Below, piece by piece: positions 9,159-39,109 of a DNA stretch of 64,000 bases. The translations under genes were made by a program, and so were the position numbers. Position 1 is the stretch's first letter. Each line of letters begins with the position of its first letter. Under the pieces are notes generated by a model. The model saw only the letters and a list, made by a program, of their open reading frames with translations, did no database searches and was not told the DNA's origin. The DNA lies in assembly GCA_031296115.1 (NCBI GenBank), contig JARLGI010000036.1, forward strand, positions 37,678 through 101,677, given 5' to 3'. Source of the stretch: Acidobacteriota bacterium. Its GTDB lineage: Bacteria > Acidobacteriota > Terriglobia > Terriglobales > Acidobacteriaceae.

Positions 9159-9443
9159 AGCAGCCTCCTAGCGTGCATTGCGGTGCGCCGGCGGCGAATT
9201 GGGCGCTAACCTACTTCGAGCCACACCGGAGCTTGCTTGTGTTCCGTTACTGCCAGACTATGACCGTGAAAAACAAGCTGCGCAACATTCTGGACTTTAG
9301 AGCAGAGACACTCGCGCCGGTTATGACCCAGGTCACGTCGTGCTGTGACATCACCGCCTCGTCCAATGTTTCAAGACTCTATCGCAAGTTCGCACGCTGG
9401 GAAAGGTTTTCTTCGTGGCAACGAAGTCGTGCGATGGAAACGA

Positions 9444-10073: not shown

Positions 10074-10276
10074 AGTAATTGCTCCTGGCCCCAGCTTGTG
10101 AGATGCGCTGCGGTTGTTAGAGTATCGCAACTGGAAGCGCTTGGCTGGCGGGTGAGCCCGCAGGCGAAATCGCGCACACGATCGGGGACCGGGTTGCGCG
10201 GATAGAACTGAGATACGACTGGTGCCAGCGCTGCAGGGCGGCACGCGCCAAGTCAGGTATAGTGGCGAGAAGCTAG

Positions 10277-10783
10277 ATGCCAGAACAGGTCACACCCGAC
10301 GAGTTCAAGGCGGCGCTCGGGCGCTTCGCCAGTGGTGTCACCGTCGTCACCGTGCAAACGGCGGAGGGCGAAGTACACGGCATGACGGCCAGCGCCTTCT
10401 GCTCGGTGTCGTTGGCGCCGCCGCTGGTGCTGGTGTGTGTTGACCATCTTGCTGAGACGTACCTTCACCTGCGCGAGCGCGGCGAGTTCGGCGTGAGCAT
10501 TCTGAAGGAAGAGCAGGCGGCGCTGTCGGAGTTTTTCGCCGATCCGGAGCGCAATCCCGATGCGGCCTATCGCCTGGGCATCGAGTATCGCCAGATGCAT
10601 CGCGGGACCTACGTGCTGAAGGACGCCCTGGCAAACCTGGACTGCGCGACCGTGAAGGCGTATGAAGGCGGCGATCACACCATCTTCGTGGGCGAGGTGA
10701 GAGAAGTGGCGCTGGGCGAAGGCGAGCCGCTGCTGTACTTCCGCGGACGGTATCGCACCTTTGCATTCCCGCAGGCCAAGTGA
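10277..10783 (+). CDS. Flavin reductase-like FMN-binding split-barrel protein heading the F420 operon
   Basis: 168 residues, beginning MPEQVTPDEFKAALGRFASG. The flavin reductase domain signature is present: GVTVVTVQTAEGEVHGMTAS, then LAPPLVLVCVDH, and near the C-terminus GDHTIFVGEVREVALGEGEPLLYFRGRY. Such proteins bind FMN and reduce flavin or a deazaflavin with NAD(P)H. It lies six bases before cofG and is clearly part of the operon. It might reduce a flavin for another enzyme, use F420, or reduce dehydro-F420 where the FbiB nitroreductase domain is missing; the last is my inference. A TATAGT hexamer 15 bp before the ATG could be a -10 element. Confidence 0.85.
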   Translation: MPEQVTPDEFKAALGRFASGVTVVTVQTAEGEVHGMTASAFCSVSLAPPLVLVCVDHLAETYLHLRERGEFGVSILKEEQAALSEFFADPERNPDAAYRLGIEYRQMHRGTYVLKDALANLDCATVKAYEGGDHTIFVGEVREVALGEGEPLLYFRGRYRTFAFPQAK

Positions 10784-10789
10784 GCTGGG

Positions 10790-12067
10790 ATGCGGCGCCG
10801 TATGTTTTGGGATATCCTTCCTGAATCGCGCCTTGCAGGGGACAGCGGACGCGAGCCGGAATTCTCCTTGCCAGTCGAAGCTCCAGAACGGTCCAGCGCG
10901 CGGAAGGGTACGTCTCTTGCCTCGCACCTGCGCGAAGTGCGTGATGGGCAGGCGCTTTCGCCGGCAGCGGCTTGCGACTTGCTGCGCTGCGATGGGAGCC
11001 TGCTTGCCGAGTTGCTCGCGGCCGCAAAGGCGGTGAAGGAGCGATTCCATCCTGGCGTCATTACGTACTCGCGCAAGGTCTTTATTCCTTTGACCAACTT
11101 GTGCCGCGACTACTGCGGCTACTGCACCTTCCGCCGCGACCCGGGCGAAGTCGGAGCGCACACCATGACGCCCGACGAGGTGCTCGCGGTCGCCGAGCGG
11201 GGTGAGAAATTGGGTTGCACCGAGGCGCTTTTCTCGCTGGGCGACAAGCCAGAAGCGCTATTCCCGGATATGCGCGAGAAGCTTCGCCAGTTCAGGTATC
11301 GCAGTACGCTGCATTATCTGGAAGCCATGTGCGCGCTGGTTTTGCGCGAGACGAAGCTGCTGCCGCACGCCAATCCCGGACTGCTAAGCGCCTATTGGAT
11401 CGAGCGTCTGCGCGAGACCAATTCCAGCCTGGGCCTGATGCTGGAGAGCGCCGGCGCGCTGCCGGGCGCAACGCACCCGGAAGGACTGACTCCCGACAAG
11501 CTGCCGTCGCTGCGACTCAAGACCATGGAGGATGCAGGCAAGCGCGGCGTGCCATTCACCACCGGGATCCTCATCGGGATTGGCGAGAGCATGGAAGATC
11601 GCGTGGATTCACTGCTGGCGATCCAACGGCTGCACCAGCAGCATGGTCACATCCAGGAGGTCATCGTCCAGAACTTCCGTGTGAAACCGCGCATTCCGAT
11701 GGCGAAGTGGCCGGAGCCCAACACTGGCGACATGCTGCGCACCATCGCCGTCGCGCGCCTGCTGCTACGCGATATGAACCTTCAGGCTCCGCCGAACCTC
11801 ACCGAGAATGGCTACGAGCGGCTGCTGGAAGCAGGCATCAACGATTGGGGTGGAGTTTCGCCGCTCACGCCCGACTACATCAATCCCGAAGCGCCATGGC
11901 CGCACTTGCTGGACTTGCAACAGCACACGGAAGCCGCTGGCCAGAAGCTGGTGCAGCGACTGCCGGTCTATCCCGAGTTCGTCGCCTCGGTGGTTGCGCG
12001 CGGCGGGCTGCTTGCCGAGCGCCTGAAGGCCGCCTTGGATGAAGACGGCTATGCGAGGGCCGCGTAG
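10790..12067 (+). CDS. cofG: 7,8-didemethyl-8-hydroxy-5-deazariboflavin (Fo) synthase subunit CofG
   Basis: 425 residues. The radical SAM cluster motif is NLCRDYCGYCTF (CxxxCxxC) at about residue 100, preceded by ITYSRKVFIPLTNL, the usual CofG sequence. TEALFSLGDKPE and LHYLEAMC follow, and GILIGIGE and NFRVKPRIPM lie further on. With CofH it builds the deazaflavin chromophore Fo from tyrosine and 5-amino-6-ribitylaminouracil. The N-terminal 85 residues include a poorly conserved lead (RLAGDSGREPEFSL), so the true start may be later than ATG 10790. The stop at 12065-12067 directly abuts cofD's ATG. Confidence 0.95.
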   Translation: MRRRMFWDILPESRLAGDSGREPEFSLPVEAPERSSARKGTSLASHLREVRDGQALSPAAACDLLRCDGSLLAELLAAAKAVKERFHPGVITYSRKVFIPLTNLCRDYCGYCTFRRDPGEVGAHTMTPDEVLAVAERGEKLGCTEALFSLGDKPEALFPDMREKLRQFRYRSTLHYLEAMCALVLRETKLLPHANPGLLSAYWIERLRETNSSLGLMLESAGALPGATHPEGLTPDKLPSLRLKTMEDAGKRGVPFTTGILIGIGESMEDRVDSLLAIQRLHQQHGHIQEVIVQNFRVKPRIPMAKWPEPNTGDMLRTIAVARLLLRDMNLQAPPNLTENGYERLLEAGINDWGGVSPLTPDYINPEAPWPHLLDLQQHTEAAGQKLVQRLPVYPEFVASVVARGGLLAERLKAALDEDGYARAA

Positions 12068-13021
12068 ATGGTCGTCGTCTTCACCGGGGGAACCGGCGGC
12101 ACCAAGCTGGTGCAGGGTTTGCAGCAGGTGGTTGCGCCGGAAGAGCTGACGGTCATCGTCAACACCGGCGACGACATCGAGTGGTGGGGACTGTTTGTCT
12201 CGCCCGACATCGATTCGGTGCTGTATGGAATGGCTGGCCTGCTGAGTACCGAGCGCGGCTGGGGCGTGGAGGGCGACAGTTTTCGCTGCCTGGAACGCAT
12301 GAAGCGACTCGGGCAGGCACCGTGGTTCAGCCTGGGCGATTTGGATTTGGCGACGCACCTGACGCGCACCGCGATGCTGCGGGCGGGGAAGCCGCTCGGC
12401 GAAGCGACCGCCGAGCTGGCGGCGAAGATGGGAATCCGCGCGCGCGTGCTGCCGATGTCCGATGACCGGGTCTCGACCATGCTCGACACTGCAAAAGACA
12501 CGTTGACGTTTCAGGAATATTTCGTGCGCGAGCGGCACCAGGTGAAGGTGCATACCGTGCGCTTCGAGGGCGCTGAGCGGGCGCGGCCGGCGCCCGGCGT
12601 GCTGGAGAGCGTCGCGGCGGCGGATGCGATCGTCCTTGCTCCCAGCAACCCGGTGACCAGCATCGGACCGATGCTGGCGGTGCCGGGAATTCTCGACGCG
12701 CTACGGACTGCGAAAGCGTCCATCGCGGCGGTGAGCCCCATTGTGGGCGGAGCAGCGGTTTCCGGTCCCGCAGGTGAGCTGATGAAGATGATGGGCTGGC
12801 CAAGCACCATCGCGGGCGTGGCCAGGGCCTACGAGGATTTCCTGGACGTGCTGATTGCCGATCGCGCCGACGAAGTTGAGGCATCTCACCTAAACAGCAA
12901 GACGCTGCGCGTTGTCTGTACCAGCACGATCATGAAGTCCATGGACGATAAACGCGCGCTGGCGCGGTTCGCGCTGGACGCCTGCGCCACGCCGCAGATT
13001 ACGGGGTTCGCAGGCGATTGA
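12068..13021 (+). CDS. cofD: 2-phospho-L-lactate transferase CofD
   Basis: 317 residues. The start MVVVFTGGTGGTKLVQGL contains the GGTGGxKL nucleotide/Fo-binding loop of the CofD/UPF0052 fold. IVNTGDDIEWWGLFVSPDID is the conserved second motif, and LGDLDLATHLTR and PSNPVTSIGPML occur later. It transfers the phospholactyl (or phosphoenolpyruvyl) group from the guanylylated donor to Fo, giving (dehydro-)F420-0. It abuts cofG with zero spacing, so translation is probably coupled. Length is normal for the family. Confidence 0.95.
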   Translation: MVVVFTGGTGGTKLVQGLQQVVAPEELTVIVNTGDDIEWWGLFVSPDIDSVLYGMAGLLSTERGWGVEGDSFRCLERMKRLGQAPWFSLGDLDLATHLTRTAMLRAGKPLGEATAELAAKMGIRARVLPMSDDRVSTMLDTAKDTLTFQEYFVRERHQVKVHTVRFEGAERARPAPGVLESVAAADAIVLAPSNPVTSIGPMLAVPGILDALRTAKASIAAVSPIVGGAAVSGPAGELMKMMGWPSTIAGVARAYEDFLDVLIADRADEVEASHLNSKTLRVVCTSTIMKSMDDKRALARFALDACATPQITGFAGD

Positions 13022-23466: not shown

Positions 23467-23645
23467 GGGACGATTATGAATCCATCCAGGCTGCGCCGCC
23501 AGCCTTTCCATTGGCTGCTGAATTTGCGCCGCAGGCTGCCAAATTACGCCACTGGTGCGCGTTACGTTGCTGCTTCCGGCGCTGTTACAATAGAGTAATA
23601 GTGGGGAGAGCCGAGTTTCTACCCGATATACTGGACCGCACAAGA

Positions 23646-24617
23646 ATGACTTTGAGCCAACCCAAGACCTTACTCTTGCTGAAGCCCCGGGGCTTCTGTG
23701 CCGGCGTGGTGCGCGCCATTGACATCGTCCGCATCGCCCTGGAAACCTTCGGAGCGCCCATCTACGTCCACAAAGAGATTGTCCATAACCGCCACGTGGT
23801 GGACGAGTTGAGCGCCAAGGGCGCCATCTTTGTGGACAGCGTGGAAGAAGTCCCAACCGGCGAGCGCGTCATCTACAGCGCCCACGGGGTTGCACCCGAA
23901 GTGCGGGAGTCGAGCAAGCTGCGCGAACTGCGCGTGATTGATGCGACCTGTCCGCTGGTGACCAAGGTCCATGTAGAGGCCGTGAAGTTTGCCCGTGAAG
24001 GCTATTCGCTGATCCTGATTGGACACCACGACCACGATGAGGTCATCGGCACCCTCGGCGAAGCTCCGGCAGTGACCCAGGTAGTGGACGCGCCCGAGGA
24101 CGTTGACAACCTGCATGTCCCCGATCCCGACCGGTTAGCTTACCTAACGCAGACCACGTTGAGCCTCGACGAAACGACGCATGTGATCGAGGCCCTGCGC
24201 AAGCGCTTTCCCAACATCAAGGGCCCGCACGCGCAGGACATCTGCTACGCGACGGAGAATCGCCAGACAGCGGTGAAGGAAGTCGCTAGCGAGTGCGATC
24301 TGCTGCTGGTGGTAGGCTCGGACAACAGCTCGAACTCGAACCGGCTGGTGGAAGTGGCGTGCAACCTGGGCACGCGGTCGTATCTCATCGAGAACTTCCG
24401 CTCAATTCAGCCGGACTGGCTGGAAAACGTAAACACCGTCGGCCTGACCGCCGGCGCCTCGGCCCCCGAGATCCTGGTGCAGGAAGTGGTGCATTTCCTG
24501 GCGGAGCAAGGCTTCACCAACATGCGCGAGGTGGAAGTGATGCCGGAGCATGTGCGCTTCGGCCTGCCGCCGGAGATCGTGGAGGCCATTGGCGCTGCGC
24601 CCGCTATGGCGGAGTAA
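23646..24617 (+). CDS. ispH: 4-hydroxy-3-methylbut-2-enyl diphosphate reductase IspH
   Basis: 323 residues from ATG 23646. All three Fe-S cysteines are in their motifs: KPRGFCAGVVRAID, DATCPLVTKVH and QDICYATENRQ. HGVAPEV, GHHDHDEVIGTLGE and GSDNSSNSNRLVEVA also match. It makes IPP and DMAPP, the last step of the MEP pathway. Its position seven bases before shc ties isoprenoid supply to hopanoid synthesis; the two are probably one transcript. Confidence 0.96.
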   Translation: MTLSQPKTLLLLKPRGFCAGVVRAIDIVRIALETFGAPIYVHKEIVHNRHVVDELSAKGAIFVDSVEEVPTGERVIYSAHGVAPEVRESSKLRELRVIDATCPLVTKVHVEAVKFAREGYSLILIGHHDHDEVIGTLGEAPAVTQVVDAPEDVDNLHVPDPDRLAYLTQTTLSLDETTHVIEALRKRFPNIKGPHAQDICYATENRQTAVKEVASECDLLLVVGSDNSSNSNRLVEVACNLGTRSYLIENFRSIQPDWLENVNTVGLTAGASAPEILVQEVVHFLAEQGFTNMREVEVMPEHVRFGLPPEIVEAIGAAPAMAE

Positions 24618-24624
24618 GCGAACC

Positions 24625-26568
24625 ATGGCAGACCCAGATAATCCCGCCGAGATGCGCTTCGGCAAGATTGATGACATTCAGAGCCGGGTGGCCGCAGCCA
24701 TGGACGCCGCGCGGCAATACCTGTTCTCCATCCAGGATCGCGACGAAGGCTATTGGTGCGGGGAACTGGGTGCCGATACCACGCTGGTGTCGGACTACGT
24801 TCTGCTGCATCGCCTGCTGGGCACCGAAGATGGTACGCGCACCCAGAAGTGCGCGACCGAGATCCTCAACCGCCAGAATGGAGATGGCGGCTGGCCCATC
24901 TACAACGACGGGCCATCCAACATCAGCGCGTCGGTGAAGGCGTATTTCGCGCTGAAGATGGCCGGCTATAGTGCGGAGCATCCGCAGCTGCAGAAGGCGC
25001 GCGAGCGGATACTGGCGCTCGGCGGCGTGACGGAAGTCAACACCTTCACCAAGATTTACCTTTGCTTCCTCGGGCAATACGATTACGACGCGGTCCCGGC
25101 CATTCCACCGGAGATCGTGCTGTTCCCCAAGTGGTTCTGGTTCAACATCTACGAGATCTCGTCATGGTCGCGGGCCATCCTGGTGCCGCTGTCGATTGCT
25201 TACGCTAAGAAGCCGTTCAAGAAAATTCCGCCGGAACAGGGCATCGAGGAGCTGTTTGTCGGAGGCCGTACCAAGAGCCGGCTGCGACTGCGCTGGGCCA
25301 AGAAGCCGGTCAGCTGGCGCAATTTCTTCCTCGTGCTCGACCGCCTGGTGCATTTCCTGGAGAGCGTGCACGTTCGTCCTTTGCGCTCGCTGGCGCTGAA
25401 GGTGGCGGAGAAATGGATGCTGGAGCGGCTGGAGATGAGTGATGGCCTGGGGGCGATTTATCCGGGCATCATGAACTCCATCATCGCGCTGCGCTGCCTG
25501 GGCTATTCGCTGGATGACCCGCAGGTGATTCGCGCGATGGATGAGTTTGAAAGACTTGGCATCGAGGAAGAAACGACCTTCCGCATGCAGCCTTGCATGT
25601 CGCCGGTGTGGGACACGGCGTACGCGGTGTTTGCCCTGGCGGAGAGCGGGGTCGCCGCCGCCGACCCCCGCCTGGTGCAGCCCTGCGAATGGATGCTGAA
25701 GAAGCAGGTCACGCGCCGCGGCGACTGGTGCGTGAAGAACCGCAAGGCAGCGCCCGCCGGCTGGTACTTCGAGTTCAATAACGAGTTCTATCCGGACGTG
25801 GACGACACTGCCCAGGTCATGCTGGCGCTCAGCCGGGTGAAGACCAGCAACGAGAGCTATCACGACAGGTCGGTGCGCCGCGCGCTGGACTGGGTGCTCT
25901 CCATGCAGTGCAAGAACGGTGGTTGGGCGTCCTTCGACAAGGACAACAACCGCATGGTCTTCCAGCAGATTCCGTTTGCCGACCACAACGCCATGCTGGA
26001 TCCGGCGACCGTGGACATTACGGGGCGCGTGCTGGAGTGCCTGGCCAGTTACGGATATTCGCTGAAGGACCAACTGGTTCGCCGTGCCATTGAGTTCATC
26101 AAGCGCGAGCAGGAGCCGGAAGGCTCATGGTTTGGGCGCTGGGGCGTGAATTACATTTACGGCACCATGCTGGTACTGCGCGGGCTGCAGGCCATTGGGG
26201 TGGACTATCACGAACCGTTCGTGCAGCAGGCGGTGGAGTGGCTGCGGATGATGCAGAACCCCGATGGCGGCTGGGGCGAAAGCTGCGACTCGTACGATGA
26301 TGCGACGGTCAAAGGCGTGGGCCCGAGCACGGCTTCGCAGACGGCGTGGGCGGTCATGGGGTTGCTGGCGGCCAGCGACACTCGCAGCGATTCACTGCAA
26401 CGCGGAATTGCTTACCTGTTGAAGACGCAGCGGCGGGATGGCTCGTGGGATGAGTCGCTGTACACCGGCACGGGATTCCCCCGCGTGTTTTACCTGATGT
26501 ACTACATGTACCGGCAATATTTCCCGTTGCTGGCGTTGACCGAGTACGCGAAGTTCAGTTGTCAGTAG
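24625..26568 (+). CDS. shc: Squalene-hopene cyclase
   Basis: 647 residues from ATG 24625; the track start at 24550 lies inside ispH. The acid motif DVDDTA (the DXDD of cyclases) is at residues 391-394. Repeated QW motifs include QNGDGGWPIYN, CKNGGWASFD, QEPEGSWFGRWG, QNPDGGWGE and QRRDGSWDE. It cyclises squalene to hopene at the membrane. hpnC/D/E, which make the squalene, lie downstream in the same cluster. The last residues FSCQ and the stop codon lie in a GTTGTCAGTAGCCAG repeat, so the C-terminal few residues are repeat-derived. Confidence 0.96.
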   Translation: MADPDNPAEMRFGKIDDIQSRVAAAMDAARQYLFSIQDRDEGYWCGELGADTTLVSDYVLLHRLLGTEDGTRTQKCATEILNRQNGDGGWPIYNDGPSNISASVKAYFALKMAGYSAEHPQLQKARERILALGGVTEVNTFTKIYLCFLGQYDYDAVPAIPPEIVLFPKWFWFNIYEISSWSRAILVPLSIAYAKKPFKKIPPEQGIEELFVGGRTKSRLRLRWAKKPVSWRNFFLVLDRLVHFLESVHVRPLRSLALKVAEKWMLERLEMSDGLGAIYPGIMNSIIALRCLGYSLDDPQVIRAMDEFERLGIEEETTFRMQPCMSPVWDTAYAVFALAESGVAAADPRLVQPCEWMLKKQVTRRGDWCVKNRKAAPAGWYFEFNNEFYPDVDDTAQVMLALSRVKTSNESYHDRSVRRALDWVLSMQCKNGGWASFDKDNNRMVFQQIPFADHNAMLDPATVDITGRVLECLASYGYSLKDQLVRRAIEFIKREQEPEGSWFGRWGVNYIYGTMLVLRGLQAIGVDYHEPFVQQAVEWLRMMQNPDGGWGESCDSYDDATVKGVGPSTASQTAWAVMGLLAASDTRSDSLQRGIAYLLKTQRRDGSWDESLYTGTGFPRVFYLMYYMYRQYFPLLALTEYAKFSCQ

Positions 26569-26831: not shown

Positions 26832-27821
26832 ATGAAATGTTTCGTCACAGGCGCGACTGGATTTTTAGGCAGCCACGTTGCCCGGCAACTACTGGCGCGG
26901 GGAGGGGAGCTGCGGCTGTTGATGCGTCCAACCAGTCGCACCGACAACATTGACGACCTTCCGGGGGAGCGTGTGGTTGGAGACCTGCGCGATCCCGGGT
27001 CTTTAGCAAAGGGAATGTCGGGTTGCGAGTTTGTGTTTCACGTTGCCGCCGACTACCGGCTATGGGCGCGAAATAGGCAGGAACTCTACGACTCCAACGT
27101 GGAAGGCACGCGCAACGTCCTGCAAGCAGCGAGAGAATCGGGCGTGCGGCGGGTTATTTATACAAGCAGCGTCGCCACGATGGGCTTCGGCAACAACGGG
27201 CACTTAACGGACGAGCAAACGCCGGTCGCCCTCTCGAACATGATCGGCGATTACAAGCGCAGCAAGTTCATGGCGGAACGCCTGGTCATCGAGGCGGCAC
27301 AAGCGGGGCAGAACGTGGTGATGGTCAATCCCACGACTCCCATCGGCGAGCGCGATATCAAGCCGACGCCGACTGGCCGTATCGTGGTTGATTTTCTGAA
27401 ACGCAAGTTTCCCGCCTATGTGGACACCGGATTGAATCTGGTTGACGTGGTGGATTGCGCGGAAGGACACTTGCTTGCGATGGAGAAAGCGGCGCCGGGC
27501 GAGCGCTACATACTCGGTGGCGAGAACCTCACGCTGAAGCAGATATTGGACAAACTGGCTGCCATCACGGGTTTGCCGTCACCGAAGGTAAAGCTGCCCT
27601 ACGCGATGGCCTACGCAACCGGGGTGGTGGACACGCTGGTCACCGGCAGGATGATGGGGCGTGAGCCGCGGGTTACGCTGGATTCGGTACGCATGGGGCG
27701 CAAGAAGATGTTTGTCTCCAGCGCCAAGGCGGAGCGCAACTTAGGCTGGAAGCCGAGGCCGGTGGATGAGGCCCTGCGGCGCGCGGCGGACTGGTTCCGG
27801 GCGAACGGCTATGCCGCATAG
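26832..27821 (+). CDS. hpnA: Hopanoid-associated sugar epimerase HpnA (extended SDR)
   Basis: 329 residues. The N-terminal Rossmann motif MKCFVTGATGFLGSHVARQL and the active site region YTSSVATMGFG..LSNMIGDYKRSKFMAE with Tyr-x-x-x-Lys (YKRSK) are intact. NPTTPIGERDIKPTPTGR is typical of HpnA. The family is a conserved neighbour of hopanoid genes, presumably acting on the sugar-like side chain; its exact reaction is not settled. It overlaps hpnG by 11 bp. Confidence 0.9.
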   Translation: MKCFVTGATGFLGSHVARQLLARGGELRLLMRPTSRTDNIDDLPGERVVGDLRDPGSLAKGMSGCEFVFHVAADYRLWARNRQELYDSNVEGTRNVLQAARESGVRRVIYTSSVATMGFGNNGHLTDEQTPVALSNMIGDYKRSKFMAERLVIEAAQAGQNVVMVNPTTPIGERDIKPTPTGRIVVDFLKRKFPAYVDTGLNLVDVVDCAEGHLLAMEKAAPGERYILGGENLTLKQILDKLAAITGLPSPKVKLPYAMAYATGVVDTLVTGRMMGREPRVTLDSVRMGRKKMFVSSAKAERNLGWKPRPVDEALRRAADWFRANGYAA

Positions 27822-28515
27822 GGCAATCGCGATCGTAGCCGCCATGCGCCGGGAGGTGGCACCGCTGTTGCAATCGGTTCAAGCGGACAAGGTGGATGGA
27901 GTCGAATTGTTCGAACTGGATGCAGCGGTCGTCGCAATCGGCGGTATTGGCAAGAAAGCGGCGGGTAGAGCGACCGAGGTGGTCATTCGCTATTGCCGTC
28001 CGGAACTGGTGGTGAGTGTAGGAATCGCGGGCGCGGTCTCGCCAAAACTGAAGACCGGTGTGGTCGGACGGGCGCGGGAAGTGGTCGATGTCGAGAGCGG
28101 CGTTCGTTACCCGGTAGATGGCGGAGAATGGGTGGTCGCAACGGCTTCCGGGATAAGCAGTCCGGCAGGGAAGCGCGACCTGGCCCTGAAATTTGGCGCC
28201 GACGTGGTTGACATGGAGTGCGCGGCCGTCGCCGAGGTTGCGCGGGAGTACGGGCTGGAATTTGCGGCAGTGAAGGCGGTGGCGGATGAAGCTGACTTCG
28301 ATATGCCACCCATGGCGGCATTTGTCGCCGAGGACGGAAGGTTCCAGACCGGACGGTTTGTGAGCTATGTAGCACTGCGTCCGAAGCTATGGCCGGCGGT
28401 GAACCGGCTCCGTAAAGTCACCACGACAGCCGCAGTGAACCTGAGTTCGGCAGTGACACATCTAATGGACGAGTGCTCAGTGTCTCAATGGGAGGAGAAC
28501 GTTCCCCAAGCCTGA
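27811..28515 (+). CDS. hpnG: Hopanoid-associated phosphorylase HpnG (nucleoside phosphorylase fold)
   Basis: 234 residues from ATG 27811 (MPHRAIAIVAAMRREVAPLL), overlapping the end of hpnA by 11 bases. It has the PNP/MTA-nucleosidase pattern: IVAAMRREV, VSVGIAGAVSPKLKTG, and VVDMECAAVAEVAREYG with the purine/ribose-binding Met-Glu. In characterised bacteria HpnG removes adenine from adenosylhopane to give (phospho)ribosylhopane after HpnH has attached adenosine. No HpnH radical SAM gene is in the window, so it must lie elsewhere if the pathway is complete. Distinction from generic MTA/SAH nucleosidases rests on context. Confidence 0.82.
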   Translation: MPHRAIAIVAAMRREVAPLLQSVQADKVDGVELFELDAAVVAIGGIGKKAAGRATEVVIRYCRPELVVSVGIAGAVSPKLKTGVVGRAREVVDVESGVRYPVDGGEWVVATASGISSPAGKRDLALKFGADVVDMECAAVAEVAREYGLEFAAVKAVADEADFDMPPMAAFVAEDGRFQTGRFVSYVALRPKLWPAVNRLRKVTTTAAVNLSSAVTHLMDECSVSQWEENVPQA

Positions 28516-28533: not shown

Positions 28534-29658
28534 ATGTCGACTGCAACCCAGTTCCGCAGTGATACAAGCAAGGATGCCATCCCTGCCATGATGCAGGCTG
28601 CGGTGTATCACGGCGTCAATGACGTTCGTCTGGAGACGGTGCCGGTGCCTGAGGTTGGCCCGGGCGAAATCCTAGTACGCGTTCATACTTGTGGCATTTG
28701 CGGTACCGATCTGAAGAAAATTGCTACCGGGTCGCACTCTGCGCCGCGAATTTTCGGCCATGAAACAGCCGGAGTGGTAGCGGCTCTTGGCGAGGGAGTT
28801 TCCCAGTTTCAGGTTGGCGACCGGGTGATGTTTTTCCATCACATCCCTTGTGGGGAGTGTTACTACTGCCGGCATAAGGTGTTCGCCCAATGTCCCACGT
28901 ACAAGAAGGTCGGTGCGACGGCCGGCTACGAACCGAGCGGGGGCGGATTTGCCGAATACGTGCGGGTGTCGGATTGGATTGTCCGCAGGGGAGTGATCCG
29001 GATTCCTGATGGAATTTCCTTCGAGCAGGCGTCGTTCATCGAGCCCGTGAATACCTGCATGAAAGGTATTGAAACGCTTGGGCTTAAGCCGGGTGAGAGT
29101 GTGCTGGTCATCGGCCAGGGGCCAATCGGCATCCTATTGGCGGTGCTGGCGCATCGCAAAGGAGCGCGGGTAATTACTTCCGATTTGTTTCCCGCGAGGC
29201 ATACAATAGCTAGGTCGTTCGGTCTGAACGAGAACATCGACGCGTCGACTTCGGATACCGTTGGACAGGTCCAGGATCTGACGGAAGGGCGAGGGGCAGA
29301 TGCGGTCATTCTGGCAGTTGCCGGGAATAGCTTGATTCGTCCCGCCATGGATGCCACGCGGCCTGGCGGGCGAGTTCTGCTGTTTGCGCAAACTCAGCAC
29401 GGGGAAGCGACCATTGACCCCGCGGCGGTTTGCGTTGATGAGAAGAGTCTTTTGGGTTCGTACAGCGCTTCTGTCGACTTACAGGAAGAGTCAACGGAAT
29501 TTGTGCTGGGTCGCGAGATGGACTTGGAGCGGCTCATAAGCCATCGTTTTCCGTTGACGGAGTCGGAAGAGGCGTTGCAATTGGCTGCCCATCCCAAACC
29601 AGACTCGATGAAGGTATTGATTCAACCGGGCAGCCTATGGAAGGACCAAGCAGAGTGA
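28534..29658 (+). CDS. Zinc-dependent medium-chain dehydrogenase in the hopanoid cluster (first of two)
   Basis: 374 residues. The GroES-like half holds HTCGICGTDLKKIATG (catalytic Cys), GHETAGVV (catalytic His-Glu) and the structural zinc set CGECYYCRHKVFAQC. The Rossmann motif VLVIGQGPIGILLAVLA follows. It resembles sorbitol/threonine/alcohol dehydrogenases; substrate unknown. It begins 18 bases after hpnG and overlaps the next dehydrogenase (GTGA). Location between hpnG and hpnC suggests work on the hopanoid side chain, such as oxidation or reduction of a polyol; this is inference. About 20 N-terminal residues precede the family start (MMQAAVYHGV), so a later Met is possible. Confidence 0.85.
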   Translation: MSTATQFRSDTSKDAIPAMMQAAVYHGVNDVRLETVPVPEVGPGEILVRVHTCGICGTDLKKIATGSHSAPRIFGHETAGVVAALGEGVSQFQVGDRVMFFHHIPCGECYYCRHKVFAQCPTYKKVGATAGYEPSGGGFAEYVRVSDWIVRRGVIRIPDGISFEQASFIEPVNTCMKGIETLGLKPGESVLVIGQGPIGILLAVLAHRKGARVITSDLFPARHTIARSFGLNENIDASTSDTVGQVQDLTEGRGADAVILAVAGNSLIRPAMDATRPGGRVLLFAQTQHGEATIDPAAVCVDEKSLLGSYSASVDLQEESTEFVLGREMDLERLISHRFPLTESEEALQLAAHPKPDSMKVLIQPGSLWKDQAE

Positions 29659-30704
29659 ACGGACAAATGACCGCGGCGGTCCTCTACGGTAAAGAGGACG
29701 TCAAGATCGAACGCGTGCCGATCCCCAAGTTGGAAGAAGGGGAAGTGCTGGTCAAGGTGCAAGTGGCCCTGACCTGCGGCACCGATCTGAAGGTGTATCA
29801 GCGCGGCTATCACGCGCGCATGATCGTGCCTCCAGCCCTTTTCGGTCATGAGTTGGCGGGTGTTATCGAGGAGGTTGGGCCAAACGTCAAAGGGTTTAAG
29901 AAGGGAATGCGGGTGGTCGCGCTGAACTCGGCACCATGCGGCACCTGCTTCTACTGCTCCAAGCACCAGGAAAATCTCTGTCAGGACCTGCTGTTCAACA
30001 ACGGCGCCTACGCCGAGTACATTCGCATCCCGCGCCGGATTGTTGAAACCAACATGCTGGCCATCCCGAAGCACGTCAGCTATGAAGAAGCGGCGATGGT
30101 GGAGCCGCTGGCTTGCGTATTGCGTGGCTTGCACGAAACCAAGATGGAGATTGGCGACTCGGTCGCTGTCATCGGCGCCGGCCCGATTGGCCTGATGTTC
30201 GTACAGGTGGCCAAGCTCACGGGATGTAATGTGATTTCTGTGGTGAAACGCGACTCTCAGGTGGCAGCCGCGCGCCGCATTGGCGCAGATAGCGCGGTGC
30301 AGATTACCGCCGTAGATGATCCCGTAAAAGCCGTGCGCAAACTGACGCCGGATTTCCGGGGCTGCGACGTGGTGATCGAAGCCGTAGGCCGCCCGCAGGC
30401 GTGGGAATGGTCAATCGACATGGTGCGCAAGGGCGGCACGGTGAACTTCTTTGGCGGATGTGCCAACGGCACCACCGTCGCTCTGGACACCCAGCGCCTG
30501 CATTACAACGAATTGACGCTGAAGGCCACCTTCCATCACACGCCGGAGACGGTGCGCAAGGCCTTCTCGCTGATCTGCGAGAACAAAATCAAAGGCACCG
30601 ACTACATCACCGGCGAGGCGCCACTTTCCAGACTGCAGCAGGTGCTGCGTCACATGCTCAACCGTAACGGCGACATTAAGACAGCCATTATTCCGGGGCA
30701 ATGA
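29655..30704 (+). CDS. Zinc-dependent medium-chain dehydrogenase in the hopanoid cluster (second of two)
   Basis: 349 residues if started at GTG 29655, which overlaps the previous stop as GTGA and has GGAAGGA nine bases upstream; ATG 29637 and ATG 29667 are alternatives. Motifs are VALTCGTDLKVYQRG (catalytic Cys), GHELAGVI, structural zinc CGTCFYCSKHQENLC, and VAVIGAGPIGLMFVQVAK. It is clearly a different paralogue from its neighbour, as its sequence diverges throughout. In the same operon position it may act sequentially with it on one substrate. Closest resemblance is to sorbitol/threonine-type dehydrogenases. Confidence 0.85.
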   Translation: MNGQMTAAVLYGKEDVKIERVPIPKLEEGEVLVKVQVALTCGTDLKVYQRGYHARMIVPPALFGHELAGVIEEVGPNVKGFKKGMRVVALNSAPCGTCFYCSKHQENLCQDLLFNNGAYAEYIRIPRRIVETNMLAIPKHVSYEEAAMVEPLACVLRGLHETKMEIGDSVAVIGAGPIGLMFVQVAKLTGCNVISVVKRDSQVAAARRIGADSAVQITAVDDPVKAVRKLTPDFRGCDVVIEAVGRPQAWEWSIDMVRKGGTVNFFGGCANGTTVALDTQRLHYNELTLKATFHHTPETVRKAFSLICENKIKGTDYITGEAPLSRLQQVLRHMLNRNGDIKTAIIPGQ

Positions 30705-30813: not shown

Positions 30814-31788
30814 ATGGACCGTTCCAAGATGTCGACAACGCACAACAATGTGTCCTCGGTTCAGGCAGAAGTGATTGCGAAACAGGCTGCTGCCGGCTGG
30901 CAAGCTCTGCCGCCCGAGTACGCCATTCCTGAGCAGCCCCCCTCTTTGGAGGAGGCCCAGCAGTATTGCGCGCGCCTGGCCCATTCGCACTACGAGAATT
31001 TTTCAGTCGTCACCTGGTTTCTGCCGAAAGATCTTCATCAGAACTTCTACAACGTCTACGCCTACTGCCGCATTTCCGATGACTTGGGCGATGAAGTTGG
31101 GGATCCCCAGCAATCCCTGGCTCTGTTGGACCAGTGGCAGGGCGAATTGGAGCGGTGTTATTCAGGCGAACCGCGCCATCCCGTATTTGTTGCCCTGCGT
31201 GAGACAGTGCGGCAGTGCGATATCCCGCAGCACGAGTTTTCCGATTTGCTGACCGCCTTCCGCCAGGACCAGAAGGTCGCGCGCTACCCCACTTTCGCAG
31301 CCGTGCTGGACTACTGTCGGTATTCGGCGAACCCGGTCGGGCACCTCGTACTCTATCTTTGCGGCTACCGCGATGCCGAGCGGCAGAAGCTGTCTGACTG
31401 CACGTGCACCGCGCTGCAGTTGGCGAACTTCTGGCAGGATATTGCCGTGGACTTCGGCAAAGGCCGCATTTACCTTCCATTGGAGGATCTGGCCAAGTAT
31501 GCAGTGGGCGAGGCGGACATCGCGCAACGTCGCGTCACCCCGCAGTTTGTCGAGATGATGAAGTTCGAAGTAGAGCGCGGGCGTGAGTGGTTTCGCATGG
31601 GCCTGCCGTTGGCACGGATGGTGGACAAGCATCTCGCGCTCGACATCGAATTGTTCAATCGTGGCGGAATGGAAATCCTGAACGCCATCGAACGCCAGGG
31701 CTACAACGTTCTGTCGCACCGTCCGGCGATTTCCAGGCCACGGAAATTCTGGCTGGTGGCGCGTGCGGCCGCGAGAAAACTGCTGTGA
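30814..31788 (+). CDS. hpnC: Hydroxysqualene synthase HpnC
   Basis: 324 residues. Trans-isoprenyl-synthase type alpha-helical protein with the first aspartate-rich region YCRISDDLGDEVGD near residue 85 and the second region LANFWQDIAVDFGKGRIYLP. The N-terminal ARLAHSHYENFSVVTWFLP is typical of HpnC rather than HpnD. HpnC converts presqualene diphosphate from HpnD to hydroxysqualene, which HpnE reduces. The start could also be the Met at 30829. Its stop overlaps hpnD's GTG start (GTGA). Confidence 0.92.
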   Translation: MDRSKMSTTHNNVSSVQAEVIAKQAAAGWQALPPEYAIPEQPPSLEEAQQYCARLAHSHYENFSVVTWFLPKDLHQNFYNVYAYCRISDDLGDEVGDPQQSLALLDQWQGELERCYSGEPRHPVFVALRETVRQCDIPQHEFSDLLTAFRQDQKVARYPTFAAVLDYCRYSANPVGHLVLYLCGYRDAERQKLSDCTCTALQLANFWQDIAVDFGKGRIYLPLEDLAKYAVGEADIAQRRVTPQFVEMMKFEVERGREWFRMGLPLARMVDKHLALDIELFNRGGMEILNAIERQGYNVLSHRPAISRPRKFWLVARAAARKLL

Positions 31789-32699
31789 GCGAGCATCCAC
31801 TACAGTTGCGGGCGGCGTATTCCGTATGCCGCCACATTGCTCGCTCGGCCGCGAAGAATTTTTACTACGGCTTTCTCGCTCTTCCCAGGCACAAACGCAA
31901 CGCAATCTCGGCGGTCTACGCGTTTATGAGGCGCGCTGACGACATCTCGGACGACCCGTCAATTCCGGTGGGACCACGCCGCCAGAAACTGGATGAGTGG
32001 ATCGACAGCCTGCGGCGAGTCGCCAACGGTGAGCGTACGGATGATCCGGTCCTGTTTGCGCTGGCCGATTCGCACAGGCGCTACAAAATCCCGCTGGAAC
32101 TCCTGGAACAACTGGTGCAGGGTACCGAGATGGACTTGCCCGAACGGACGGAGGAGGTACAAGCCGCCTGCGGCGGCGATGTTCCTCAATTGCAGTATGA
32201 GAGCTTCGAGCAGCTCTACGACTACTGTTATCACGTCGCGTCGGTCGTCGGCCTGGTGTGCATTCGCATCTTCGGCTACCGTGATCCGCGCGCGGAAGAG
32301 CTGGCCGAGCACACCGGTGTCGCTTTCCAGCTGACCAATATTATTCGGGACGTGAAGGAAGACGCCGCGATGGGACGCATCTACCTGCCGCGGGAGGATC
32401 TGGCGCGCTTCGGCTTATGTGCAGCCGCGCTCAGCAATGGCTCGGCGGCGTCCGTGTTCCGTCCGGTATTGGAGCTGGAGGCACAACGCGCCCGCGAGTT
32501 CTATCGCGACGCCGAAGAACTGCTACCGCTCATCGACGAGGACAGCCAGCCGGCGCTGTGGACGCTGGTCGAGATCTATCGCCGACTGCTGGAGAAGATT
32601 GCAGCCCGTAATTACGATGTTTTCACTGAAAAGGTGCGCCTCACCACTCCGGAAAAAGTCAGCGTGCTGGCCAAGGGCCTTCTGCGGCGGCTGTCGTGA
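31785..32699 (+). CDS. hpnD: Presqualene diphosphate synthase HpnD
   Basis: 304 residues from GTG 31785, which overlaps the hpnC stop; the track start at 31587 is inside hpnC. Motifs are AKNFYYGFLALPRHKRNAI, YAFMRRADDISDDP (first Asp region) and QLTNIIRDVKEDAAMGRIYLP (second). It condenses two farnesyl diphosphates to presqualene diphosphate. The mutually similar hpnC and hpnD are adjacent, as usual for this pathway. Its stop overlaps hpnE's GTG. Confidence 0.94.
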   Translation: MSEHPLQLRAAYSVCRHIARSAAKNFYYGFLALPRHKRNAISAVYAFMRRADDISDDPSIPVGPRRQKLDEWIDSLRRVANGERTDDPVLFALADSHRRYKIPLELLEQLVQGTEMDLPERTEEVQAACGGDVPQLQYESFEQLYDYCYHVASVVGLVCIRIFGYRDPRAEELAEHTGVAFQLTNIIRDVKEDAAMGRIYLPREDLARFGLCAAALSNGSAASVFRPVLELEAQRAREFYRDAEELLPLIDEDSQPALWTLVEIYRRLLEKIAARNYDVFTEKVRLTTPEKVSVLAKGLLRRLS

Positions 32700-34108
32700 G
32701 TTCCGGCAGCGCAACTCACCTGCCGCTTTCCGTCGCCGTCCTTGGCGGTGGTCTCGCTGGACTTTCTGCGGGCTGCGCACTGGCTGACGCGGGCTATCAG
32801 GTCGAGTTGTTCGAGCGCCGACCGTACCTTGGCGGCCGGGCCTCCTCCTACGAGCTTCCCGGCACGGGCGAAGTTATCGACAACTGCCAGCACGTGTTGC
32901 TGGGTTGCTGCACCAATCTCATCGACTTTTACTACCGGCTCGGAGTCGAAGAGCAAATCCGCTGGTATGACGAGATCACGTTCATTCTGCCGGGTGGCCA
33001 TTCTTCCATGTTGAAGCCGGGCGCGCTGCCACCTCCTATGCATGCAGCACCGTCTTTCCTCGAATCCACGGTCTTGGATTTGATGGACAAGCTGGTCATC
33101 GCGCGCGCCATGCTGGCGCTTGTGCCTGCTCTGCCGGAAGATGATGGCGAGAGCTTCCTTTCATGGCTGCTGCGGCACGGACAGACGCAGACGGCAATCG
33201 ACCGCTTTTGGTCGCCGGTGCTCATCAGCGCGCTGAATGACGAGCTTGACCGGGTGTCGGTCCACTACGCCGCGATGGTGTTTCGCGAGTCGTTTCTAAA
33301 ATCAGCGGAAGCCGGACGCATGGGTGTCCCGGCTGTACCGCTTTCAGAACTGTACGGGACGGCAGCGCAGTACATCGAGGCGCGCGGTGGAAAGGTTCAG
33401 CTGCGCACCGCGGTTGACTCCATCCGGCCCGATGCCGACGGCGTTGGCGTTTGCGTTGGTGCAGAAGCAGTGCGGGCAGACTATGTGATCCTGGCGACGC
33501 CATTCAGCAGTGTGGACAAGCTTCTGCCCGACGCACCGGAGCTGAAGGCTCTGGACGACGAGTTGCAGAAGTTGGAGACCTCGCCCATCACCGGTATTCA
33601 CCTGTGGTTTGACCGCCAGATCACTCCTCTGGAGCATGCCGTGCTGCTGGAGCGCACCATTCAGTGGATGTTTCACAAGTCCAAGATTCTTGCCACCCGC
33701 AGAGGCTCAACCGAAGGCGGCAGTTATGTCGAACTGGTGGTGAGCTCGTCGAAGACACTGTTGGAGAAATCGCGCGCCGAGATTGTCGAGCTTGCGGTCA
33801 GGGAACTGGGCGAGTTCTTCCCCGCGGCGCGCGAAGCACAGCTAGTCAAAGCCACAGTCGTGAAAGAAGTCCACGCTACCTTTTCGCCCCTGCCGGGCAG
33901 CGACGCTTTCCGTCCGGGACATGCCAGCCCGTGGCCCCGGATCTTCTTTGCAGGAGACTGGACGGCAACCGGCTGGCCGTCAACCATGGAGGGAGCCGTG
34001 CGTAGCGGGTACGGCGCAGCCGAGACCCTGACGCGTTCGGCTGGACGCAACGATCGCTTTCTCGTCCCCGATTTGCCCGCAAAGGGACTGATGAGGCTGT
34101 TCGAATAG
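32696..34108 (+). CDS. hpnE: Hydroxysqualene dehydroxylase HpnE (FAD-dependent)
   Basis: 470 residues from GTG 32696 (GTGA overlap with hpnD). The FAD dinucleotide motif VAVLGGGLAGLSAGCALAD is at residues 13-31, followed by ELFERRPYLGGRASSY and, at the C-terminus, FFAGDWTATGWPSTMEGAVRSG for the flavin ring. The family reduces hydroxysqualene to squalene, feeding Shc. It is the last gene of the hopanoid operon; a strong hairpin follows. Confidence 0.93.
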   Translation: MSSGSATHLPLSVAVLGGGLAGLSAGCALADAGYQVELFERRPYLGGRASSYELPGTGEVIDNCQHVLLGCCTNLIDFYYRLGVEEQIRWYDEITFILPGGHSSMLKPGALPPPMHAAPSFLESTVLDLMDKLVIARAMLALVPALPEDDGESFLSWLLRHGQTQTAIDRFWSPVLISALNDELDRVSVHYAAMVFRESFLKSAEAGRMGVPAVPLSELYGTAAQYIEARGGKVQLRTAVDSIRPDADGVGVCVGAEAVRADYVILATPFSSVDKLLPDAPELKALDDELQKLETSPITGIHLWFDRQITPLEHAVLLERTIQWMFHKSKILATRRGSTEGGSYVELVVSSSKTLLEKSRAEIVELAVRELGEFFPAAREAQLVKATVVKEVHATFSPLPGSDAFRPGHASPWPRIFFAGDWTATGWPSTMEGAVRSGYGAAETLTRSAGRNDRFLVPDLPAKGLMRLFE

Positions 34109-34181: not shown

Positions 34182-36302
34182 CTACTGCTGCTTGTTTGCC
34201 GGCTTCTGCATTTTATTCTGCGGGTTCGGTTGCATGCCGCCGGTGAGTTCGTTGACCAGCCCATCGGCGTGATAAATCTTGCTCAGCGACTCGATAATGG
34301 CCCGCGAATCAACCTCCACCGTGCGCGCTACCTTGTCGCTGTATAGGAAGTCCCACGGCAGCGACTCGATGTTGCCGTCAAAAACAATGCCCACCACTTC
34401 GGCGTTCCTATTGATCAGTGGGCTGCCGGAGTTGCCGCCGATAATGTCGGGCGTGGAGACGGTGTCGTACGGAGTGTTGAGGTTGATGTCGGACTTATGC
34501 TTCAGCCAGCTCTCGGGCAGCTCATATGGCGGCTTGCTACCGTGCGCGGCTGCATGCTCATAAGCTCCGCCCATGGTCGTGAACCAGGGAACTTTCTTGC
34601 CATTGAGTTTGTAACCGGCGATGGCGCCGTAGCTGAGACGCAGTGTAAACGTCGCGTCCGGAGGAACGTTCAGCCCATCCTTGGCGAACAGCGCCTTGCC
34701 GATGTCACCGCCGCTGCGGCGAAACACCGATTCCACCTGGTCTTCATTGCGCTGGTGAAGTGCTTGCGCCTCGGGTTCTACGCCCCGCATGAGCACGATC
34801 AGCGGGTCCGTGCTGGCATCCACGGCAGCTTTACCACCCTCGTAAAGCTGTTTGCGGAAGGCGGGATCGTCAAGCTTCGTGCCGGCAATCAACTCCTGCG
34901 CGCGTTCCTGTGGCGACTTACCGGCCAGGGCCAGCTTGACGGTCGCGTTATCGGCTCCGAGGTTCTCCTGCATTTCGTTGAGGCTCTCGGCCAACTGGAC
35001 TTCGTCCAGCGATTTGTAAACCGGAGCGGTAGAGAACAACCGCTGCTCCAAACTCGGCAGGGCTGAGTCCTGGTAGCCGCGGATGCGCTGATTACTTGGC
35101 TTCTGCTTCTCGTAGGTGGCGCGTACGATGGTGCGGGCGTAGCGGGGAAGTTCTCCGCGGAAGCCGGCCTGGTTGTCAATGTAGGTCAGCGGCAGGAAAA
35201 TCTGCTTCTGAATAACGACTGCCTTGGCGATGTCACTCCAGGGATCGCCGTACTCCTGCTTGCGCTTGGCGTCAGAGCTGACGAAAGCCTGCAATGCTTT
35301 CTCGTCGGCCGCCTTCTTCGCCATCAGGTCCTTATCCTGCAATCCGCCCTGGTAGCCGGTATAGGCCTTGAAGCCGTTTTGCAGACTGAAGAAGTCGCTT
35401 TCTGCTTCGCGAGCGTTTTCTGGCGACTGTGCGCTAAATTTCTGGAGCATGTCGATGCGGCGCGCCAGCGACTTGAGCTGCCAGGGATACTGCACGTCGC
35501 GCAGAAACTCGAGCTGCGCCGTGGTGAGCAGTCGTCCGGTGCGGCCCGGGTGGCCGGAAACAAAAACCAGGTCGCCATCTTTGACCCCGTCCGGAGACCA
35601 CTTCAAGTAGTCCTTGATCTTTGCCGGCTGATCGTTCTCGTAGGCGCGAAAGAAGGAAATATCCAAGTCGTAGCGCGGATATTCGAAGTTGTCCGGGTCG
35701 CCGCCAAAGAAGGCGATGTCGAACTCGGGGGCAAACACCAAGCGCACGTCGCTGCACTTTTTGTACTTGTACAGGCTGTACATCGCGCCGGAATACAACG
35801 TGACCATGTCACAACGCATGCCATTGGTGGAGCAATCCTTCTCCAGGTTCGACATGACTTCGCGTTGTGCCTTGCCGGCGTCGGCTGCCGACATCCCGGG
35901 CTTGGCCGCGGCATTCACTTTGTCGGTTACGTCCTGGATATCTTCAAGGACGACAAACTCCACGCCCGGACACTTGGGCTCTTCCGCCCGGGTAGGGGCG
36001 TAGAAGCCGTTCTTCATGTAATCCTTGCCGTTGGAGGAGAGGTCGTGGACACAACCCTGGGCGATGTGATGATTGGTGAAAATGAGTCCGTCCGCTGAAA
36101 CGAAGGATGAAGAGCCGTTGGGGGCACGTGCGGAGGAAAGGCGTACGTGGTCAAGCCACGCCTGATCGGGGGCGAAGCCGTACTTGGCTTTGACTTTGTC
36201 TTTGGGGAAAGCGTTAAACAGCCACATGCCTTCGTCCGCGAAGGCAAGACTGCACAGGCCGAGCGTAAGTACGCACAGCACGAGCGCAACACGTTTTTTC
36301 AT
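34182..36302 (-). CDS. S46-family dipeptidyl peptidase (DPP7-like)
   Basis: 706 residues from ATG 36302 (MKKRVALVLCVLTLGLCSLAFA, a signal peptide); the track start adds 35 implausible residues. It begins with the family hallmark DEGMWLFNAFP. Catalytic residues are visible: His in IFTNHHIAQGC, Asp in the FEYPRYDLDISFF region, and Ser in GGNSGSPLIN. The residue 18 after that Ser is Gly (VFDGN), which in characterised enzymes goes with DPP7-type hydrophobic P1 choice rather than the Arg of acidic-specific DPP11. It would cleave dipeptides from peptides in the periplasm. ATG preceded by GGAG. Confidence 0.92.
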   Translation of the reverse strand: MKKRVALVLCVLTLGLCSLAFADEGMWLFNAFPKDKVKAKYGFAPDQAWLDHVRLSSARAPNGSSSFVSADGLIFTNHHIAQGCVHDLSSNGKDYMKNGFYAPTRAEEPKCPGVEFVVLEDIQDVTDKVNAAAKPGMSAADAGKAQREVMSNLEKDCSTNGMRCDMVTLYSGAMYSLYKYKKCSDVRLVFAPEFDIAFFGGDPDNFEYPRYDLDISFFRAYENDQPAKIKDYLKWSPDGVKDGDLVFVSGHPGRTGRLLTTAQLEFLRDVQYPWQLKSLARRIDMLQKFSAQSPENAREAESDFFSLQNGFKAYTGYQGGLQDKDLMAKKAADEKALQAFVSSDAKRKQEYGDPWSDIAKAVVIQKQIFLPLTYIDNQAGFRGELPRYARTIVRATYEKQKPSNQRIRGYQDSALPSLEQRLFSTAPVYKSLDEVQLAESLNEMQENLGADNATVKLALAGKSPQERAQELIAGTKLDDPAFRKQLYEGGKAAVDASTDPLIVLMRGVEPEAQALHQRNEDQVESVFRRSGGDIGKALFAKDGLNVPPDATFTLRLSYGAIAGYKLNGKKVPWFTTMGGAYEHAAAHGSKPPYELPESWLKHKSDINLNTPYDTVSTPDIIGGNSGSPLINRNAEVVGIVFDGNIESLPWDFLYSDKVARTVEVDSRAIIESLSKIYHADGLVNELTGGMQPNPQNKMQKPANKQQ

Positions 36303-36430
36303 GATGACTCCGGACGCGAAAGTTCCGCGTGAGTGATCGTCCGGTATAGGGAGCTCCAGACGGGTAAGCAAACCCTCAACCATAACTCCGGAGAAGGTGG
36401 GAAGCAAAGATACAGCCGAGGAGCGGACAG

Positions 36431-38116: not shown

Positions 38117-39109
38117 ATGAAAGCCGGAATCCTGCTTCATCCACATCCCATTGCAGAAAAACCACTGCACGTTGAGCAGGTCGGTCGTCCCGAAATGAAA
38201 CCCGGGCACGTACTTGTTAAGGTGAGGGCCTGTGGCGTTTGCCGCACAGACCTGCACATCGTCGAGGGTGAGCTTGCCGCGCCTCGCGCAAACCTGATTC
38301 CCGGCCATCAGATCGTGGGTGACATTGTGGAGGGAGCTGCCCGCGAACTCCCCGTTGGTACGCGGGTAGGGGTTTCCTGGGTCGGCGGCACCGATGGCAG
38401 TTGCTGGTACTGCCGGCGCGACATGGAGAACCTGTGTGACTCTCCAACCTTTACGGGCTACACGGTGAACGGCGGCTACGCCGAGTATGCGCTGGCCCGC
38501 GCCGATTTCGTCTTTCCGCTGCCTTCCGAACTCGATGACCTGCATGCCGCGCCCCTCTTGTGCGCCGGCATCATTGGCTTTCGCAGCCTCCGTGTTGCCG
38601 GAACACAACGCGGCGAACGGGTTGGCTTGTTTGGGTTCGGAGCATCGGCCCATCTGGCCATCGAGGTCTTGCATTCCTGGGGATGCGACGTTTATGTTTC
38701 GACCCGCGGTGAATCCCATCGCAAATTGGCCGGCTCGCTCGGCGCCAAATGGGTCGGTACGGAAACCGAGAAGCCTCCGGCGGAACTGGATCGCGCCATA
38801 ACCTTCGCGCCCAGCGGAGACGTTGTAGTGGCGGCCCTGTCCAGTTTGCGGAAGGGCGGGGTCGTTGCCATCAACGCAATCCACCTGGACCGAATGCCCC
38901 AGTTCGACTACGACAGCCTGCTTTGGGGCGAACGCCAAATTCGCAGCGTCGCCAACATGACACGTGACGACGCGCGCGACTTCCTGCAGTTGGCTGCCGA
39001 GATCAAGTTACATCCCAAGGTGACTGCGTTCACGCTTGACCAGGCGAACGAGGCCTTGTTGGCGGTCAAGCAGGATGCGATTGACGGAGCCGCGGTGATC
39101 CTGCCATGA
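38117..39109 (+). CDS. Zinc-dependent alcohol dehydrogenase
   Basis: 330 residues with AAGGA seven bases before the ATG. Catalytic zinc motif RACGVCRTDLHIVEGEL and GHQIVGDIVEG, structural zinc CWYCRRDMENLCDSPTFTGYTVNGGYAEY, and coenzyme motif VGLFGFGASAHLAIEV (GxGxxA in place of GxGxxG). The stretch DSPTFTGYTVNGGYAEY marks the AdhP/'CAD-like' subgroup that oxidises simple or aromatic alcohols. It is convergent with tolB, 13 bp apart, and is unlike the two dehydrogenases of the hopanoid cluster. Confidence 0.9.
   Translation: MKAGILLHPHPIAEKPLHVEQVGRPEMKPGHVLVKVRACGVCRTDLHIVEGELAAPRANLIPGHQIVGDIVEGAARELPVGTRVGVSWVGGTDGSCWYCRRDMENLCDSPTFTGYTVNGGYAEYALARADFVFPLPSELDDLHAAPLLCAGIIGFRSLRVAGTQRGERVGLFGFGASAHLAIEVLHSWGCDVYVSTRGESHRKLAGSLGAKWVGTETEKPPAELDRAITFAPSGDVVVAALSSLRKGGVVAINAIHLDRMPQFDYDSLLWGERQIRSVANMTRDDARDFLQLAAEIKLHPKVTAFTLDQANEALLAVKQDAIDGAAVILP

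Follow-up and report, generated by a model that had tools for sequence, protein, structure and literature searches.

Hopanoids are bacterial sterol-like lipids. In a 64,000-nucleotide stretch of acidobacterial DNA (contig JARLGI010000036.1, hereafter the window), the hopanoid gene cluster contains two genes for zinc medium-chain dehydrogenases (MDR), here termed MDR1 and MDR2. Do these two enzymes belong to the hopanoid pathway, and which step do they serve? An initial annotation of the sequence had proposed that they act on the hopanoid side chain and make a modified bacteriohopanepolyol (BHP). Another candidate step is the conversion of ribosylhopane to bacteriohopanetetrol (BHT), for which the enzyme was not established as of a 2025 survey; in that survey, the surroundings of the alphaproteobacterial hpn cluster yielded no obvious new candidates (PMC12583986).

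Results

MDR1 and MDR2 lie inside a hopanoid gene cluster

As shown in Table 1, nine co-oriented genes of the window are arranged in the order ispH-shc-hpnA-hpnG-MDR1-MDR2-hpnC-hpnD-hpnE. From hpnA to hpnE, neighbouring genes overlap or are separated by short gaps of at most 109 bases (5' of hpnC), so this part of the cluster is likely to be one transcript. The initial annotation had placed hopanoid genes on both flanks of the pair. This was borne out by HpnA, HpnC and HpnE, which scored above their NCBIfam cut-offs, and by HpnD, which came close when scored on a longer ORF that is open from 31587; the HpnG-like protein stayed below its cut-off. The name hpnG is therefore used provisionally, from position and superfamily. 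The 5' part of this ORF overlaps the 3' end of hpnA, and its frame is open from 27766. It is the gene of the locus with the lowest conservation among relatives, and its position and neighbours are kept. The hpnH gene of the same genome is on a different contig.

Table 1. Genes of the hopanoid cluster and two genes past its 3' end, with positions in the window.
Gene	Product	Position	Strand	Evidence
ispH	4-hydroxy-3-methylbut-2-enyl diphosphate reductase; first gene of the cluster	23511..24617	+	NF002189, 452.8 bits, above cut-off; real start 3' of 23511
shc/hpnF	squalene-hopene cyclase	24550..26568	+	TIGR01507, 767 bits (cut-off 431)
hpnA	hopanoid-associated sugar epimerase (SDR)	26832..27821	+	TIGR03466, 497 bits (cut-off 368)
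hpnG-like	nucleoside phosphorylase	27811..28515	+	PF01048; TIGR03468, 87 bits, below cut-off 187
MDR1	zinc medium-chain dehydrogenase, 374 aa	28534..29658	+	PF08240 and PF00107
MDR2	zinc medium-chain dehydrogenase, 349 aa from GTG 29655	29655..30704	+	PF08240 and PF00107
hpnC	squalene synthase subunit (hydroxysqualene synthase)	30814..31788	+	TIGR03464, 340 bits (cut-off 250)
hpnD	presqualene diphosphate synthase	31785..32699	+	TIGR03465, 268 bits, just below cut-off 279
hpnE	hydroxysqualene dehydroxylase; last gene of the cluster	32696..34108	+	TIGR03467, 488 bits (cut-off 283)
	large S46 peptidase	34182-36407	-	PF10459, 722 bits
	third zinc alcohol dehydrogenase	38117-39109	+	TIGR02822, 342 bits, above cut-off

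Two further genes were observed outside the cluster. The S46 peptidase gene is convergent with hpnE immediately past it, and the third zinc alcohol dehydrogenase, which is unrelated to MDR1 and MDR2, adjoins tolB about 4 kb 3' of it.

MDR1 and MDR2 are distinct zinc MDRs with different predicted cofactors

Both ORFs are intact. Their GroES-like N-terminal (ADH_N) and Rossmann (ADH_zinc_N) domains scored far above the Pfam cut-offs, and both proteins carry the catalytic ligands and the four-cysteine structural lobe of the zinc-containing MDR superfamily. In MDR1 the lobe is formed by C106/C109/C112/C120 and the catalytic ligands are C56, H76, E77 and E170; in MDR2, with residues counted from ATG 29637, the lobe is C101/C104/C107/C115 and the ligands are C47, H71, E72 and E156. 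These residues are invariant in 51 orthologues of each protein with the exception of C47 of MDR2, which is replaced by Asp in two of the 51 (L055 and L065). Full catalytic and structural zinc sites in two non-identical MDRs, as initially described, were thus confirmed. The two proteins share about 32% identity and form separate deep clades in the tree; their origin by recent tandem duplication was rejected on the basis of these clades.

The two genes had also been described as coupled by a GTGA overlap, which holds if MDR2 starts at GTG 29655. GGAAGGA is found just 5' of this codon, and the motif V(N/K)xxM is kept in distant relatives, in some of them directly after a stop codon. This conservation supports GTG 29655 as the probable start, with ATG 29637 and ATG 29667 as alternatives.

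In MDR enzymes, Asp at the end of the second Rossmann strand is the usual sign of NAD(H) use, and basic residues there are the usual sign of NADP(H) use. We found Asp217 at this place in 50 of 51 MDR1 orthologues and Glu in the remaining one. MDR2 has Lys/Arg followed by Arg/His (K204-R205, numbered from 29637). From these conserved residues, MDR1 is predicted to be NAD(H)-dependent and MDR2 NADP(H)-dependent.

Pairwise dN/dS against a congener was about 0.07 for MDR1 and about 0.04 for MDR2, compared with 0.10 for HpnA and 0.06 for HpnC, and MDR2 is among the slowest-evolving proteins of the locus. These results indicate that both families are under purifying selection, with conservation far above chance expectation.

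The structure models have a pLDDT of 87 for MDR1, which shows an ADH/polyol dehydrogenase fold, and 88 for MDR2. Both predicted folds match solved polyol, butanediol and alcohol dehydrogenases, matches that add little to function because the fold is common to all MDRs. The top-scoring solved relative of MDR2 is an NADP(H)-dependent ketose reductase. We compared the pair with the polyol/threonine dehydrogenase branch of zinc MDRs, namely the NADP(H) ketose reductase 1e3j and the butanediol (6ie0), threonine (2dfv) and L-arabinitol (3m6i) dehydrogenases. The fold, zinc sites and Rossmann domain are shared with this branch, but identity is only about 22-30% and MDR1 and MDR2 keep their own deep clades. 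Against the NCBIfam MDR equivalogs (threonine, scyllo-inosose and galactitol-1-P dehydrogenase, and others), both proteins scored well below every cut-off, the best score being 184 bits versus a cut-off of 458 (Tdh).

The position of the pair is conserved in relatives

The order hpnA-hpnG-MDR1-MDR2-hpnC-D-E was found in about 35 relatives wherever the contig reaches far enough, with few exceptions. The neighbourhood of MDR1 was also scanned across 84,980 species, with one genome per species, and the best 80 loci were kept. These come from Terriglobales, Acidoferrales (group 2) and Bryobacterales, and all or almost all of them are acidobacterial. Among these best 80, MDR2 directly follows MDR1 in 77/77 loci, hpnG lies 5' of MDR1 in 70/73, and hpnC/D lie 3' of the pair in 62/66. 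The position is kept across deep branches, at 50% identity. Conservation beside hpn genes, the first test that the initial annotation had set for itself, was thus found in both sets. The hopanoid locus of Terriglobia, Acidoferrales (group 2) and Bryobacterales includes the pair at a near-fixed position. Among the exceptions, MDR1 and MDR2 are still adjacent in G117 and L179 and lie outside the hopanoid locus, and in family f36 MDR1 comes immediately after hpnA.

The acidobacterial genes were also seen in records titled Bordetella parapertussis (L171, CALQCC020000014.1) and Chthonomonadales (L179, CALLMM010000032.1). The former record looks mislabelled, and mislabelling is suspected for the latter.

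Sinninghe Damsté et al. (2017) named the gene after hpnG 'ug1' and the gene before hpnC 'ug2', giving no function (PMC5462960). They described ug2 as a gene for about 350 aa, annotated as a Zn-binding alcohol dehydrogenase and linked with hpnCDE; the product of ug1 is not stated in their text (PMC5462960). Joining their clusters end to end gives the gene order of the window, and one of their strains has all hopanoid clusters joined (PMC5462960). In the window, MDR1 follows hpnA-hpnG, and MDR2, a zinc alcohol dehydrogenase of the described size, precedes hpnC. MDR1 is therefore probably ug1 and MDR2 probably ug2, matched by position and published description. The arrangement itself has been in print since 2017, and the initial statement that the known Hpn set does not include these genes stands for names, but both had already been flagged (PMC5462960). 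In that paper ug2 is absent from the SD3 cluster (PMC5462960), whereas in our Bryobacterales (SD3) MAGs MDR1, MDR2 and hpnC are consecutive. What is new here is that both genes encode zinc MDRs with differing predicted cofactors and conserved residues, that in Bryobacterales, as elsewhere, the two are contiguous, and that the pair's phylum-wide distribution tracks the cyclase, not the squalene genes.

The pair co-occurs with the cyclase and not with squalene genes

We examined 197 Acidobacteriota genomes at least 90% complete, 55 with a squalene-hopene cyclase and 142 without. MDR1 orthologues were called at E < 1e-110, and weaker matches in G146 and G163 (38-40% identity) were counted as paralogues. 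MDR1 was present in 34 of the 197 genomes, all of which have MDR2 and the cyclase and 33 of which have HpnH. None of the 142 cyclase-less genomes has an MDR1 orthologue. The co-occurrence spans 16 genera and 5 families (hypergeometric p ~2e-13 by genus, 1e-4 to 4e-4 by family). Neither MDR1 nor MDR2 was found in the 28 genomes that have HpnE but lack the cyclase, and ten genomes carry the pair without HpnE. The distribution of the pair therefore tracks hopanoids, not squalene, and a squalene-only role is not supported by the distribution of HpnE.

MDR1 is absent from 21 of the 55 cyclase-positive genomes. One of these, G016, has no hpnA or hpnE either, which suggests gene loss or a gap in the assembly; the rest come from eight other acidobacterial families. 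In several hpnG loci inspected in cyclase-positive genomes without the pair, no replacement MDR was found beside hpnG, where FMN enzymes, mevalonate genes, HpnI/J-like genes and others were present. A universal ribosylhopane reductase would be present in every BHT producer. The pair is therefore not the general BHT reductase and would be lineage-specific at most; another enzyme must serve in the families without it.

Some cyclase-positive genomes of other families, which do not have MDR1 and MDR2, were seen to carry tandem MDR pairs at sites distant from hpn genes, with one member being MDR2-like (G104, G115, G193, G232; L080, L082, L204, L205). Those of L080 and L082 combine one NAD-type and one NADP-type cofactor loop. 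These pairs were not weighed as evidence.

An MDR2 orthologue with 55% identity occurs in one cyclase-less genome, G174 (L085, G174:C23:40000-59500, 9240-12412), where it is divergent from genes for a class II aldolase, an acireductone dioxygenase and a HAD hydrolase. These neighbours resemble a methionine/5-deoxyribose salvage set. As a chemical parallel, HpnG products are also 5-substituted ribose.

Discussion

MDR1 and MDR2 are very probably oxidoreductases dedicated to the hopanoid pathway in Terriglobia, Acidoferrales (group 2) and Bryobacterales, both serving hopanoid metabolism. Which reaction they catalyse is a separate matter, as operon position cannot discriminate between substrates. 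We put at roughly 40% the probability that the BHT-forming ribosylhopane reductase of these bacteria is one or both of the two, MDR2 being the likelier. The pair would act on the C35 side chain, downstream of HpnH and HpnG. HpnG-type cleavage of adenosylhopane, with removal of adenine, gives ribosylhopane, an aldose whose open-chain form is an aldehyde. One of the zinc MDRs would reduce this group to a primary alcohol, yielding BHT, and the NADP(H)-type MDR2 is the most probable candidate. MDR1, of the NAD(H) type and linked to hpnA-hpnG, may act as its partner, either on that carbon or on a neighbouring one; it may, for example, oxidise a secondary hydroxyl or form a ketose that is then reduced by MDR2. 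Two genes may be present because the enzymes form an oxidation-reduction couple (for epimerisation or an aldose-ketose route) or a heteromer, or because they catalyse two distinct steps. The fuller proposal, in which MDR1 and MDR2 form a two-enzyme zinc dehydrogenase couple (NAD(H) plus NADP(H)) from ribosylhopane to BHT and other hopanoid producers use unrelated reductases, is advanced only tentatively.

A conserved zinc MDR pair of the polyol/ketose-reductase type beside hpnG, with one NADP(H)-type member, fits this step, and tetrafunctionalised BHPs are made by every tested strain of these subdivisions (PMC5462960). The chemistry has a precedent in the reduction of ribosylhopane to BHT that, as summarised in the 2025 survey, Bodlenner et al. 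(2015) found in a cell-free system of Methylobacterium organophilum (PMC12583986). HpnA was proposed earlier for the same reaction and, like the pair, clusters with hpnG, but it belongs to the SDR epimerase family. It has been reported to be dispensable for BHT in Burkholderia cenocepacia and is missing in some BHT producers (PMC5462960). Against the reductase reading, MDR2 stays with squalene genes and not with side-chain genes when the locus is split, and its orthologue occurs in the cyclase-less G174.

Nearest to the idea of the initial annotation is a role in modifying or epimerising BHT, in which MDR1 would oxidise a side-chain hydroxyl with NAD+ and MDR2 would use NADPH to reduce the ketone or aldehyde so formed; the outcome would be a different stereoisomer of BHT or a modified polyol. 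MDR1 never occurs without MDR2 (34/34 genomes), and the opposite predicted cofactors suit an oxidation-reduction couple. To our knowledge, there is no established enzyme for side-chain epimerisation. BHT is known as several isomers, 34R/34S/22S (PMC12583986). However, the chemotyped strains of subdivisions 1 and 3 contained mainly tetrafunctionalised BHPs, five strains also having some pentafunctionalised ones, and no unusual BHP common to both subdivisions was reported (PMC5462960), although Rohmer degradation would mask BHP stereochemistry and intact modifications. For a gene pair that is universal, a universal step such as ribosylhopane to BHT is also a better match than an unusual product. 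We consider this alternative unlikely. The side-chain role proposed initially thus remains reasonable because the pair tracks hopanoid and not squalene capacity, but its product, a modified BHP, is less supported in view of the ordinary BHPs of these strains.

It is also possible, though unlikely, that the two enzymes serve opposite ends of the pathway, MDR1 acting on the side chain with hpnA-hpnG and MDR2 on a near-squalene step or in redox supply to HpnE. In eight genomes from one genus and two genera close to it, the break in the locus falls precisely between MDR1 and MDR2, giving [ispH shc hpnH hpnA hpnG MDR1] and [MDR2 hpnC hpnD hpnE], with hpnH and shc at other sites in one of them. MDR1 thus keeps the company of hpnA-hpnG and MDR2 that of hpnC, in line with the published linkage of ug2 with hpnCDE (PMC5462960). 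However, the split may be a single inherited event, and both the 28 genomes that have HpnE but neither cyclase nor MDR2 and the ten that have MDR2 but no HpnE argue against a squalene-end role of MDR2. In addition, according to work cited in PMC5462960, hpnCDE by itself gives squalene in E. coli, so no dehydrogenase would be needed there.

That the two are non-hopanoid oxidoreductases of sugar, polyol or methionine-salvage metabolism merely sharing the operon is improbable: MDR enzymes are numerous (10 matches in the window's own genome) and the G174 neighbourhood points this way, but MDR1 strictly co-occurs with the cyclase and the locus position persists in deep branches.

Position and near-confinement to hopanoid makers make MDR1 and MDR2 of these soil acidobacteria good candidates for the ribosylhopane-to-BHT step. 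BHT is the parent of the hopanoids used as molecular fossils. With a pair that is fixed between hpnG and hpnC, essentially only in cyclase-bearing genomes, the idea can be tested on just two genes, in a phylum with culturable members. If the proposal is true, a gap in the pathway would be closed, and the reductase would differ in protein identity among hopanoid producers.
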